Part shown: positions 38,675 through 59,354 of the stretch, in pieces | Numbering within the stretch: position 1 is the first letter of the stretch | Layout of the letters: each line of letters opens with the position of its first letter | Assembly: GCF_947258525.1 (NCBI RefSeq) | Contig: NZ_CAMYIP010000011.1 | Coordinates: 1 to 64,000, forward strand | Direction: 5' to 3' | Length of the DNA: 64,000 nt | Source of the DNA: an uncultured Eudoraea sp. | GTDB taxonomy: Bacteria; Bacteroidota; Bacteroidia; Flavobacteriales; Flavobacteriaceae | Made by a program: the position numbers and the translations under genes | Notes under the pieces: generated by a model | Seen by the model: only the letters and a program-made list of their open reading frames with translations | Databases searched by the model: none | What the model was told of the DNA's origin: nothing

Positions 38675-39289
38675 TTATTTATGTTTTCCCTTTTCCCATC
38701 CATACTTACCTAAATAGAGTTCACCACTTTCTACAGCTCCATCCTCTATGGTTGTTCCCATAGAATCGTTCCAGCGGTTTAGATAACCAAAAAGGGAAAT
38801 TACCCCTAACATTTCAACGATTTCACCTTCATTCCAAAATTTGTATAATTGTTCTTTGATTTTTTCATCAACAGCGTTGGGTACCTGTGAAGCGGCCAGG
38901 GAAAAATCCAGAGCAGCGCGTTCAGCTTCCGAAAAAGCAGCATGGGTTCTGTACTCCCAAATATTATCCAGTTGTTCCTGTTCTGCACCGTAGCGTTCCG
39001 CGGCACGTATGGCATGGGCCTGGCAATACCGACAACCTGTGGCATTGCTGCTAACCCACGCAATCATTCGTTTAAGAGCAGAAGTTACCCCTCCTTCATT
39101 GGCCATAACCGCCTTGTTTAGGTTGATGAAGGCCTTAGAAATTGCCGGTCTGTGTTGCATTGTGAGTACAGAATTTGGGCAAAAACCAAGGGTTTCGTTG
39201 AAAAATTCTGCCAATTTTTTGGTCTGCGGATCATGATTGGGGTCCAGAGGTTGTACAAGTGGCATAGCGATAGTATTTTTGTATTCCAC
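38675..39289 (-). CDS. AhpD-like/carboxymuconolactone decarboxylase family protein
   Basis: This 204-residue protein has the redox motif Cys-x-x-Cys followed by His in 'ATGCRYCQAHAIRAAERYG'. That is the active site of AhpD-type alkylhydroperoxidases. Around it lie helical segments 'LKRMIAWVSSNATG' and 'FSEAERAALDFSLAAS'. A Met at residue 9 (39265) is an alternative start and would place less of the gene over the divergent promoter. A thiol peroxidase or related detoxification role is likely. The divergent OsmC-like gene has a related role, which supports a small stress pair. Confidence 0.8.
   Translation of the reverse strand: MEYKNTIAMPLVQPLDPNHDPQTKKLAEFFNETLGFCPNSVLTMQHRPAISKAFINLNKAVMANEGGVTSALKRMIAWVSSNATGCRYCQAHAIRAAERYGAEQEQLDNIWEYRTHAAFSEAERAALDFSLAASQVPNAVDEKIKEQLYKFWNEGEIVEMLGVISLFGYLNRWNDSMGTTIEDGAVESGELYLGKYGWEKGKHK
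39251..39281 (+). promoter_or_regulatory. Bacteroidota-type promoter of the OsmC-like gene
   Basis: TTG at 39251-39253 and TATTTTTG at 39274-39281 have a 20-base spacer and lie 23 bases before the ATG. The promoter overlaps the start of the divergent AhpD-like gene. Confidence 0.65.
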
Positions 39290-46536: not shown

Positions 46537-46611
<75 letters not shown>

Positions 46612-56067: not shown

Positions 56068-56676
56068 ATGGCATTTGAATTACCAAAACTACCCTATGCA
56101 TATGATGCATTAGAACCTCATATTGACGCAAGAACTATGGAGATACACCATACAAAGCATCACAATGGTTATACTACGAAGCTTAACGCAGCTATTGAAA
56201 ACACAGATCTCGCAACTAAATCTATAGAAGAGATATTAGAAAACTTAGATATGTCTAATGGCGCCGTCCGAAATAATGGAGGAGGGTATTACAATCATGC
56301 CTTATTTTGGGAAATTATGTCTCCGGATGGTGGAGGTGAACCAACAGGAGAACTTGCGTCGGCAATTAATGATGCCTATGGTTCATTTGATGCCTTTAAG
56401 GAGACTTTTAGTAATGCGGCAGCGACACAATTTGGTTCTGGCTGGGCCTGGCTTTGTGTGCATAAAGGGGGCAAGGTAGAAGTTTGTTCTACACCAAATC
56501 AAGATAATTCATTAATGCCCGGCACAGGATGCGGAGGTCATCCAATATTAGGATTGGATGTTTGGGAACATGCTTATTATTTAAATTATCAAAACAGAAG
56601 GCCGGATTACGTTAAAGCTTTTTTCAATATTATCAACTGGGATAAAGTTGCTGAATTATACAGTTCCAATAAGTAA
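56068..56676 (+). CDS. sodA: Superoxide dismutase (Fe/Mn family)
   Basis: This 202-residue enzyme dismutates superoxide in the cytoplasm. Metal ligands are His27 in '[12 protein letters not shown]', His77 in '[10 protein letters not shown]', and Asp and His in '[13 protein letters not shown]' near 164-168. The 'GGGYYNH' stretch and the Gln in '[10 protein letters not shown]' are the features usually found in Mn-type enzymes, so sodA is preferred over sodB. Its length is typical. A perfect terminator follows. Confidence 0.94.
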
Positions 56677-56710
56677 ATTACGATTAGACTTTAGTCCGGA
56701 AGTGATTTGA

Positions 56711-56746
56711 AAAAAACCTCCCTAATTAATTAGGGAGGTTTTTTTT
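56711..56746 (+). terminator. Perfect terminator after sodA
   Basis: ACCTCCCTAA and TTAGGGAGGT form a perfect inverted repeat with short A/T sides, followed by a long T run. It separates sodA from the small RNA array. Confidence 0.9.
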
Positions 56747-56755
56747 ATTGTATAG

Positions 56756-56825
56756 AAAAGGGTGGAGAAGCCTCCACCCTTTTCGTCCCAAATCTTACCA
56801 TAAACTTAACCTACTTATGCTATGG
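56756..56825 (-). ncRNA. Tandem small RNA unit 1
   Basis: Read on the minus strand, this unit starts CCATAGCATAAGTAGG, continues through the core shared by all four units, and ends in a hairpin (GGGTGGAG/CTCCACCC on the plus strand) followed by T residues. A -7 box TAATTTAG lies on the minus strand at 56838-56831, five bases before the core. A TTG (56860-56858) lies 19 bases further up. The core differs from the other units by one base (A for G near 56802). Confidence 0.75.
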
Positions 56826-56952
56826 CATTACTAAATTACTGGTATTGTGAGAAATAACAAAGGGAAATTTTTAGGCTTTGTACTTATGCTGAAAGCGGAA
56901 TCGGGAAGAAAAGTTTTCACTATAAAAAGTATAATTTACTGATAATCAGAAA

Positions 56953-57022
56953 TAAAAAAGGCAGGTTTTCACCTGCCTTTTTCCCCAAATCTTACCATGA
57001 ACTTAACCTACTTATGCTATGG
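56953..57022 (-). ncRNA. Tandem small RNA unit 2
   Basis: This unit has the same 39-base core as units 3 and 4 and then a terminator with arms GGCAGGT/ACCTGCC and a T run. The -7 box TACATTTG (57035-57028, minus strand) is an exact TAnnTTTG match, again five bases before the core. The predicted transcript is about 70 nt. Confidence 0.8.
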
Positions 57023-57172
57023 TCTTCCAAATGTAAGTGAATAAGAAGTTGTGAAAAAAGGTTTTGGACAAACTCCTTTTTAATTGGATGAAATGCGTAC
57101 TGGTAGGATATCGTTAGATGTGGGAAAAAGAAATATTAAAGAAATTTGTTGTTAGGGGAAAATATACTAAAA

Positions 57173-57241
57173 TAAAAAGGCAGGTTTTCACCTGCCTTTT
57201 TCCCCAAATCTTACCATGAACTTAACCTACTTATGCTATGG
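57173..57241 (-). ncRNA. Tandem small RNA unit 3
   Basis: The core is identical to that of unit 2, with the same GGCAGGT/ACCTGCC terminator and T run. The -7 box TATATTTG (57254-57247, minus strand) is exact and at the same five-base spacing. Upstream it shares a further segment with unit 2 (57062-57094 resembles 57281-57313), so the duplicated unit is larger than the RNA itself. Confidence 0.8.
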
Positions 57242-57398
57242 TTCTTCAAATATATACTAATGCTTCGGAGTCGATTAAAATTTTGGCTAAACTTCTTTTT
57301 AATTGGTTGAAATACCTTTGTCTGGCTATTATACTATAATAGGTGAGGAAAAGTCGTATTAAATGTGAAGTAAATTTAAAAAAAAAGGGATGTTAAAT

Positions 57399-57469
57399 AA
57401 AAAAGGTGGAGAAGTCTCCACCTTTTTTGCCCCAAATCTTACCATGAACTTAACCTACTTATGCTATGG
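57399..57469 (-). ncRNA. Tandem small RNA unit 4
   Basis: The core is identical to units 2 and 3. The terminator arms are GGTGGAG/CTCCACC, like unit 1 but unlike units 2 and 3, and both arms change together so pairing is kept. The -7 box reads TACTTTAG (57482-57475, minus strand), one mismatch from TAnnTTTG, at the same spacing. It is the unit nearest to purF. Confidence 0.78.
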
Positions 57470-57528
57470 CAAGTCTAAAGTAACCGCCTTTCGTTCGCTA
57501 TGGTTAAAAAGCCGATGAATAGCATAAA

Positions 57529-57568
57529 TTATCGATGAAATGCACATATTTGTGTATTTCATCGATAA
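57529..57568. repeat. 18-base-pair hairpin at the 3' end of purF
   Basis: TTATCGATGAAAT (57529-57541) pairs perfectly with ATTTCATCGATAA (57556-57568). Five more pairs (one G-T) extend the stem toward a four-base loop. It lies five bases beyond the purF stop on the minus strand. It lacks a strong T run, so it may be an mRNA end-stabilising structure or a protein site more than a classical terminator. Confidence 0.55.
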
Positions 57569-57573
57569 AAATG

Positions 57574-58758
57574 TTAATATGCCCTTACGTTTTTACCCTC
57601 ATAAAAGTTTATAAAAGCCCTGTTTACAACTTTATTTCCCCCGGGGGTTGGGTAATCTCCAGTGAAATACCAATCTCCGAGATTCTTTGGGCATGCCTGA
57701 TGTAAACTTTCTATGGTTTGGTAAATTATTTGTACTTCAGCTTTAATATCTGCAGGACTTAAAAGATCGCCAATTTTTTTAGATATCTGATCCGCGCTAA
57801 AAGGTTGATAAAAGTCTTTTACATAATTAATAACATCTTTATCAGGTGTTTGAACTTGATGTATACACTTCTGATAGATTTCATCAACAAGCTGCATAGA
57901 ATTATGCTCCTTATGTAATTCAAGAGTGGCCTTAAAGGCTATAAAATCTTCCAGCTTTGCCATATCAATGCCATAACAATCCGGATAACGAATTTGTGGT
58001 GCAGAGGAAACAACAATTATTTTCTTAGGGGATAACCTGTCTAAGATCCTTAATATACTTTTCTTCAAGGTGGTGCCCCGAACAATACTATCATCAATGA
58101 TTACGAGATTGTCATTTTTGTTTACAGAGCCATAAGAAATGTCATAAACGTGGGCTACAAGGTCATCCCTGCTGCTATCCTGGGTTATAAATGTTCTTAG
58201 TTTGGCATCCTTAATGGCCACTTTCTCAATCCTGGGTCTAACATCTAGGATCTTATTTAATTCCTCTCTGGTAATATTCGAACCTAATTTTAGAATTTGT
58301 TCTTCCTTTTTCTTATTCAAATAGTTCTGTGCTTCTCTGATCATGCCCAAGTAGGAGGTCTCAGCGGTATTCGGAATATATGAAAAGACCGTATTTTTTA
58401 TATCTCCGTCAATTGCAGACAATATTTGAGGAAAAATCAATTTCCCTAATTCTTTTCGCTCCTGATATATTTCTTTATCGCTACCTCTTGAAAAATATAT
58501 TCTTTCAAAAGAACACGCTTTTCTTTCCCTTGGTTCTAATATTTCAGTTGAATTGACCCTTCCGTTTTTCTTTATAATTAATGCATTACCGGGTTCGAGT
58601 TCCTGAACGTCCTCATATACAACATTAAAAACTGTTTGAATTGCAGCTCTTTCCGAGGCAACTACGACTACCTCATCGTTTTTAAAATAGTAAGCAGGTC
58701 TTATACCGGAAGGATCTCTGAGTACAAAAGAGTCTCCATGTCCAAACATACCGGCCAT
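57574..58758 (-). pseudogene. purF: purF, C-terminal part (split gene)
   Basis: This 394-codon frame from the ATG at 58758 encodes the larger part of amidophosphoribosyltransferase. It holds the end of the glutaminase domain ('FVLRDPSGIRPAYYF'), 'FERIYFSRGSDKEIYQERKELG', and the PRPP-binding motif 'VIIDDSIVRGTT'. The frame is open further upstream to about 58805, giving 'KILRKAAKNWDGGYT' before the Met, which is normal PurF sequence. It is therefore the same gene as 58794-59354, separated by a frame change. It also lacks about 40 residues that Bacteroidota PurF proteins usually have at this point (from family knowledge). Confidence 0.8.
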
Positions 58759-58793
58759 GGTATATCCACCATCCCAATTCTTTGCAGCTTTTC

Positions 58794-59354
58794 TTAGAAT
58801 TTTATTACAGTAACAGTATCAGCCATTTCTTTAGGGTGCTGGCCCAATTGTATCAAATTATCAAAAAGCTCATCAACATTAGTCATATTAAAATTACCCG
58901 CTACGATAAGATTTCTATGCATCCAGTTATTTTGTCTTAGGAAGGGATGTACACTTTCAATACTGTTCTTGCCAAACGTACCATATCGGACGTGTCCAAG
59001 GAGCACCTCGCCTATATATGGAATCTTCCTTTTCTGCAATTCTGTATTGCCTATATATTCGGGATTTTCTTTTAAAGCCGTATTAATACGGTCATTTATC
59101 TGCGCAAAAATATCCTGTATTGGTTGTGATTCTACAGAACGAACTCTACTCATATATCGTTCTCCAGGAGACATATCTAATTTAATACTGGCAAAACCAG
59201 CACCGTCCTGACCGCGGTTATGCTGTTTTTCCATCATTAAATACATTTTGTTTACCCCGTAAAAAATACTGCCGTATTTTTCCTTATAGTAATCTAATGG
59301 CTTTAGCAGCCGTATTAAAGATATTCCACATTCGTGTTTAATGGCGTCACTCAT
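58794..59354 (-). pseudogene. purF: purF, N-terminal part (split gene)
   Basis: This 186-codon frame encodes the glutamine amidotransferase start of PurF. The catalytic Cys9 lies in 'IKHECGISLIRL', followed by 'QHNRGQDGAGFASI', 'GHVRYGTFGKNSIESVHPFL' and 'NFNMTNVDELF'. It reads normally to 'KEMADTVTV' and then shifts to 'IKF' and a stop. The correct continuation is found in another frame a few bases away. Unless it is a sequence or assembly error, the enzyme that starts de novo purine synthesis would be lost. The pfkB-like gene lies 47 bases upstream. Confidence 0.8.

Follow-up and report, generated by a model that had tools for sequence, protein, structure and literature searches.

Tandem small RNA genes at the purF–sodA locus of Flavobacteriaceae and a likely micropeptide mRNA target

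In a stretch of 64,000 nucleotides from an uncultured Eudoraea sp. (the window; contig NZ_CAMYIP010000011.1, positions 1 to 64,000), the minus strand carries four short repeated units between purF (57574-58758, minus) and the Fe/Mn superoxide dismutase gene sodA (56068-56676, plus), both of which have their 3' ends toward the array. The sodA gene was assigned with Pfam; purF was assigned by reading its protein and by comparison with a 636-aa frame in Eudoraea adriatica (L171), the Pfam matches of its product being below cut-off only. In the region 57574-59354, the window holds two purF open frames in different reading frames instead of this single 636-aa frame, which may reflect either a frame break or a sequencing error. 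Between the last unit and the convergent sodA there is a perfect 18+18-base inverted repeat (56710-56745) with T runs on both sides, which looks like a shared two-way terminator.

Each unit contains a 39-nt core, found four times on the minus strand (chance expectation 0.00, 100 shuffles), with start-to-start spacings of 228, 219 and 197 bases from unit 1 to unit 4. The cores of units 1-3 are identical, and that of unit 4, the nearest to sodA, carries C->T at position 24. Each core is preceded by a TAnnTTTG box with one mismatch or none, the end of which lies five bases away (TACTTTAG, TATATTTG, TACATTTG and TAATTTAG, respectively), and a hairpin followed by a T run closes every unit. Unit 1 spans 57397-57470 (core 57431-57469, terminator hairpin 57399-57428), with a predicted start at 57470 inferred from the position of its -7 box (57475-57482). 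Unit 2 occupies 57173-57242 (core 57203-57241, terminator 57174-57201, -7 box 57247-57254) and unit 3 occupies 56954-57023 (core 56984-57022, terminator 56954-56983, -7 box 57028-57035), these three boxes being assigned by sequence and logo. Unit 4 spans 56752-56826 (core 56787-56825 with U at position 24, terminator 56755-56784). The predicted RNAs are about 70-72 nt long, and the array reaches about 57542 once its upstream control elements are included. No other copies of this DNA were found in the genome beyond two palindrome self-matches.

For all four RNAs, the predicted fold is more stable than that of shuffled sequence (z -3.4 to -4.4), with 1 of 200 shuffles folding equally well for one of them. 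When 31 different members of the family were compared, both sides had changed in 8 of the 12 pairs of the terminator helix and 98.9% of cells remained paired, in keeping with the original prediction of hairpin arms that differ between units while pairing is kept; its description of four tandem units, of the box and its distance from the core, and of a core identical in three units and one base off in the fourth was also confirmed. The 5' part of the RNA is predicted to fold as well, 9 of the 10 pairs of its hairpin being invariant in the same 31 members, which speaks neither for nor against this hairpin. We read the array as four genes for one family of sRNAs of about 72 nt, a reading that covariation, the cross-genus core, the spread of the family and its conserved neighbourhood all support.

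A DNA match to the array family was found in 19 of 40 relatives, the Eudoraea genome itself being counted among the 40. A covariance model search had been proposed; run with a model built on 31 RNAs, it found members in 130 of 149 Flavobacteriaceae genomes, each of which gave 1-6 matches (G048 only weakly). At the order level, 64 of 296 genomes matched, 54 of them inside the family (G317, G337 and G372 weakly) and 10 outside; none of these 10 exceeded 37.3 bits and they were taken, by score, as presumed terminator-only matches. A scan of named genomes gave at least 118 matching stretches, from genera that include Eudoraea, Maribacter, Zobellia, Aquimarina, Winogradskyella and Flavobacterium among the 80 loci examined for neighbours. 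In these 80, purF was present in 66, sodA in 66, both in 56, at least one of them in 76 and neither in 4. Two genera inside the family lacked an array match in all their sampled genomes, namely g132 (G140, G217, G325, G364 and G397) and g164 (G172 and G349). No viral contig matched one core pattern. A transposon or repeat, named beforehand as the result that would speak against the prediction, was thus looked for and not found, and inheritance looks vertical, at one chromosomal place, rather than that of a mobile repeat. The core exists in two types: type I, GGTAAGATTTGGGG, in Eudoraea and Zobellia, and type II, GGTAGATTTGGGG, in Winogradskyella, Aquimarina and Flavobacterium loci. At position 6, G and A both occur, without strict linkage to either type, and U for C at position 24 is present in type I and type II copies, that of unit 4 being one of them.

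When 314 distinct units from related loci were compared, they split by promoter into a group of 272 and a group of 42 that includes unit 4. The larger group has the -7 box and a purine at the predicted start, without a -33 element, and carries two TTTCAnCnAA half-sites at -71 and -51, 20 bp apart; its self-identity is 0.53 at lag 20 versus 0.20-0.35 at other lags between 10 and 31. With a matrix of this repeat, 152 of the 272 units reach the best unrelated background score (15.7), and 202 do so when the match may be displaced by up to 4 bases; in the rest, the repeats are weak or absent. In the window, the half-sites lie on the minus strand at 57508-57542 for unit 1 (matrix score 22.0; a predicted activator site), 57280-57314 for unit 2 (21.8) and 57061-57095 for unit 3 (25.1). 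In the 42-unit class, the logo shows TTT[GT] at -33, followed by a spacer that hardly varies; unit 4 (promoter at 56831-56861, minus) has TTTG at -33, a 19-base spacer with the conserved CACAATACCAG and the box TAATTTAG. Such near-invariance across genera is unusual for a spacer, and a second regulator may bind there. The idea that the units may be redundant held only in part, the promoter and core base of unit 4 being distinct. A sigma-70 promoter scan was uninformative.

According to PMC4847170, LytTR sites consist of two 9-11-nt repeats, 11-13 nt apart, and the direct repeats of the array show this same arrangement upstream of the promoter. The repeat given there for the LytTR regulator YpdB, GGCATTTCAT, contains GCATTTCAT, which matches the majority first half-site of the array, GCATTTCATC, nine bases of the YpdB repeat being included in the latter. 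Compared with those sites, the array differs in its period of 20 bp and in its targets, which are sRNA and micropeptide genes. The Eudoraea genome encodes ten LytTR domains, and a scan of the window and of the loci with these domains placed the best non-array match to the repeat matrix (20.8) beside a LytTR gene on contig C122, the next elsewhere scoring 15.7. A scan of the genome for further regulator repeats gave 9 matches versus 14 in the control. A one-mismatch match to the pattern at 39174-39203 (minus) of the window is probably due to chance, since the control count of the pattern lies above its matches. By Pfam, the C122 gene encodes a receiver-LytTR regulator, and the gene next to it a TPR-histidine kinase (HisKA_2, HATPase_c). 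Orthologs with 88-100% identity were found in 16 of 30 genomes tested, and the array-bearing G021, G023, G045, G134, G136 and G156 have distant relatives only; with close orthologs in only 16 of 30, this regulator cannot control the array everywhere.

The candidate target is a gene for a peptide of 33-44 aa (about 42 aa in loci with the antisense pattern) that lies downstream of a gene which, from its protein sequence, we take to be scoB. In the Eudoraea genome, the peptide reads MDAQINHRPIEEEIQVYRNEFFSGIIMLTRKLFMF; the tail of the micropeptide as a family follows L-x-[KR]-K-x-F-M-[LF]. Starting from a piece of ScoB, which matched in 27 of 30 genomes, a peptide frame was found downstream in 16 of the 27, the Eudoraea genome included; the 11 without it comprise five array-less and six array-bearing genomes. 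One of the latter (G021) later gave a weak peptide-profile match there, no peptide was found at scoB in four array-bearing genomes of genus g128, and none was seen after scoB in the array-less G140, G217, G172 and G349. With a peptide profile at E<=1e-3, 87 of 130 array-bearing genomes matched versus 0 of 19 array-less ones (Fisher p = 9e-9, a value that ignores the kinship of the genomes), leaving 43 array-bearing genomes with no match at this threshold; at E<=0.05 the counts were 100 and 2. Codon changes in seven overlapping close pairs of peptides (59 synonymous, 35 nonsynonymous) are compatible with a coding frame, without being strong evidence for it, and three peptides gave no match in Pfam and NCBIfam. 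Scored with the array promoter matrix, 29 of 30 loci peak 5' of the peptide gene. The promoter of the Eudoraea peptide gene reaches an array-type score of 8.9 only (rank 5). The array-type promoter repeats upstream of the peptide gene belong to genomes outside the Eudoraea-like clade, and in the type I loci of G000, G003, G010 and G049 ACAACA repeats stand 5' of the gene instead.

Several lines of evidence indicate that the start region of the peptide mRNA is a likely target of the sRNAs. One form of the antisense pattern matched 32 times in 29 of 149 genomes versus 4 times for the reversed control; on reading the loci, 14 matches fell in the leader of the peptide gene, 4 at the regulator–kinase locus discussed below, and 14 were apparently due to chance. 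In 15 type II genomes, two or three sites that deviate from CAAATCTAYC by no more than one base lie in the start region; one site ends about 15 bases 5' of the start codon in the majority of these genomes, and a site inside the coding part spells N-L-P. The frame of G014 (L299) is cut to 25 codons and keeps three antisense sites, which may be either a sequencing error or a case of RNA sites outliving the peptide. For the better of the two core types, the duplex between core and leader had z values of -2.7 to -8.6 against mononucleotide shuffles in 29 genomes, of which 16 were chosen by synteny and 13, not independent, by the antisense pattern; in 5 of the 29 (G003, G009, G010, G113 and G118), better pairing was seen with one or more of 200 shuffled sRNAs. 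The start window was the best of about 267 windows in 29 of the 30 best peptide-profile loci, G129 being the exception (36 of 266). Ten of these 30 genomes had already come up through antisense matches in the leader; among the other 20 loci, the start window is first in 19.

On a larger scale, in 400 kb of G147 the leader was the best of 39,880 windows at -40.9 kcal/mol, setting aside the antisense of its two array copies, and the next reached -34.3. The corresponding scan of G009, a Eudoraea relative (400 kb, including 2,700 N bases), failed to single out the leader, which was outside the best 15 windows, and 1,150 windows reached -25 kcal/mol. More telling for the type I genomes of the Eudoraea-like clade is a direct count: CCCAAAT stands no more than 70 nt 5' of the peptide gene in 8 of 14 of them, versus 119 of 8,907 control windows. 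A search of the Eudoraea genome for near-perfect targets (CCAAATCTTACCATGAAC, up to 3 mismatches) gave 7 matches, 4 of them the array itself, versus 4 for the reversed control. Outside the Eudoraea-like clade, sequence support for the predicted pairing of core and peptide leader is strong.

The intergenic region between the C122 regulator and the kinase has features of its own. ACAACA direct repeats occur in 15 of the 16 orthologous regions, and an alignment of nine of them contains a TAnnTTTG box, the stretch CCCCAAATCTTATCATT and a varying hairpin with a T run. This stretch is complementary to 16 nt of the array core. With up to 2 mismatches, the site was present in 10 of the 16 regions, and also in G060; its duplex with the core outperformed all 15 shuffles in 11 of the 16, did not in G055, and nothing was seen in 4. 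The predicted RNA folds with a z of -2.2 (8 of 200 shuffles were as good). We predict from these features a second, sponge-like sRNA between the LytTR regulator and the histidine kinase in the Eudoraea-like clade. Of the two possibilities raised in the original prediction, regulators or sponges, the first is better supported for the array, with the micropeptide mRNA as what is regulated; the sponge-like RNA predicted here, a partner of the array, is encoded at a different place in the genome. Additionally, a conserved stretch, TTTTCATATAGTGTTCTCG, directly follows the LytTR regulator gene in loci L252-L257 and L264, with ACAACA repeats upstream in several of them and a terminator-like hairpin downstream, and is possibly another small RNA.

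Drawing on gene structure, conservation, co-occurrence, shared promoter elements and pairing potential, which are what the genome comparisons establish, we consider it probable that the array encodes a family of trans-acting, terminator-ended sRNAs that is driven by a LytTR-type regulator and represses the micropeptide mRNA. A response regulator of this type would bind the two half-sites 20 bp apart and activate units 1-3, and unit 4 would be driven from its own promoter. The near-invariant core would then pair across the leader and the start codon in the mRNA for the 33-44-aa peptide and block its translation, using the linker AGAUUUGGGG and its 5' end, where CCAUAGC or CAUAAGU would face GCUAUGG or ACUUAUG. 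Outside the Eudoraea-like clade, the regulator of the array would also drive the peptide mRNA which, having two or three antisense sites, could titrate the sRNAs as well. In the Eudoraea-like clade, the sponge would be the second sRNA, with its complement of the linker. A threshold would be set either by the mRNA with its several sites or by the dedicated sponge, and the several gene copies would provide dosage. A more ambitious picture, which we offer tentatively and rate somewhat short of an even chance, is that of a self-contained RNA switch across most of the family, where one regulator drives both the array and a multi-site mRNA that is target and sponge at once and sets the threshold for the micropeptide, one clade having added a sponge sRNA in a second LytTR two-component locus.

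A different explanation is suggested by FopS/GibS of Bacteroides (RF04319), also from Bacteroidota, whose many near-identical copies of about 70 nt end in a rho-independent terminator (PMC11697453). The array RNAs might be regulators of several mRNAs, such as those of outer-membrane SusC-type transporters, with the micropeptide mRNA mainly a titrating decoy. The array core and the FopS consensus have the stretch UUCAUGGUA--AGAUUU in common, and, as a putative counterpart of the FopS R1' seed, UUCAUGGUAUUAGAUUUAAGG, 15 of the 17 positions of UUCAUGGUAUUAGAUUU are shared with a 2-base gap. The multicopy FopS RNAs of about 65-70 nt pair near the start codons of SusC mRNAs (PMC11697453), and pairing at a start codon is also predicted for the array. 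FopS RNAs are bound by RbpB and have an unstructured 5' stretch ahead of the terminator hairpin; in the array, covariation supports the terminator, and the 5' part is predicted to fold. The two or three sites per leader outside the Eudoraea-like clade, and the three sites of G014 with a frame of only 25 codons, would fit a decoy. However, the FopS covariance model scores 19.9, 19.2 and 20.3 bits on the array against a gathering cut-off of 56, on account of which we do not file the array as FopS, and the peptide frame is kept in many genomes, with the 59 synonymous and 35 nonsynonymous changes given above. The array is also tandem at one locus while FopS copies are dispersed, its core is conserved beyond both sides of the common stretch, its best-supported target is a micropeptide mRNA, and most of its copies have direct repeats, in contrast to the canonical promoters given for FopS (PMC11697453). 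Phylum-wide, a FopS-like seed outside the family was repeated only in genomes of f25/f26 and was otherwise near control level; among the matches listed, the loci did not look like sRNAs. We regard this explanation as rather unlikely.

Less credible still is a trans-encoded module resembling type I toxin-antitoxin systems, in which the peptide would be a small amphipathic growth inhibitor and the array its antitoxin. It would be consistent with a short peptide that has a hydrophobic, lysine-bearing end, with an RNA predicted to pair across its start, and with the finding that the array occurs without the peptide, the peptide never without the array at E<=1e-3. Against it, the two genes are unlinked in the Eudoraea genome (contigs C11 and C15), and their fixed chromosomal addresses and vertical inheritance are unusual for type I modules; we consider this quite improbable. 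A non-functional tandem duplication or mobile repeat, which the tandem layout and variable copy number might evoke, can hardly account for one syntenic place, the absence of viral copies of one core pattern, the terminator covariation and the conserved promoters.

Returning to the LytTR-driven sRNA family that we favour, its likeness to other known RNAs is limited. The comparison with Rfam that had been suggested, including flavo-1, found only a tRNA (46537-46610) at gathering score in the window and none in the array, and flavo-1 was absent among the matches at relaxed thresholds. Low-score matches (STnc40, sraA, PyrR and others) were below their cut-offs and, in the alignments inspected, mostly covered the hairpin; they were discarded. 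The Qrr RNAs of Vibrio and the Cia-dependent csRNAs of Streptococcus are several near-identical sRNAs under one signal-response regulator, and csRNA promoters have direct repeats. Both are named in PMC11697453, and the array resembles them in its near-identical sRNAs under one predicted regulator, with no sequence relation claimed; it differs in being tandem, in the predicted LytTR-type control and in sharing its repeats with a micropeptide mRNA that has several sites. Closer in taxonomy are Rfp18 and the other Rfp sRNAs of Flavobacterium psychrophilum, from the same bacterial family. There, Rfp18 is described as conserved in its genus and linked to metalloprotease mRNAs (PMC9723704), which would set it apart from the array; one of the 85 new Rfp RNAs reported there could be a member of the array family (PMC9723704). 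The core sequence, searched as text, was unmatched in the literature, and the array was absent from the titles and abstract openings surveyed. New here are the direct-repeat and unit 4 promoter classes, the likely micropeptide mRNA target and the predicted sponge RNA, and our analysis suggests that the array and the micropeptide mRNA form a regulatory circuit for which we found no description.

In this system, an sRNA family sits at one fixed address on the chromosome and comes with a predicted class of regulator, a target predicted at base level, a previously unnoticed peptide family and a predicted sponge, all of which can be studied in culturable strains. Furthermore, it raises the question of whether start-codon pairing of the FopS type may be older than Bacteroides.
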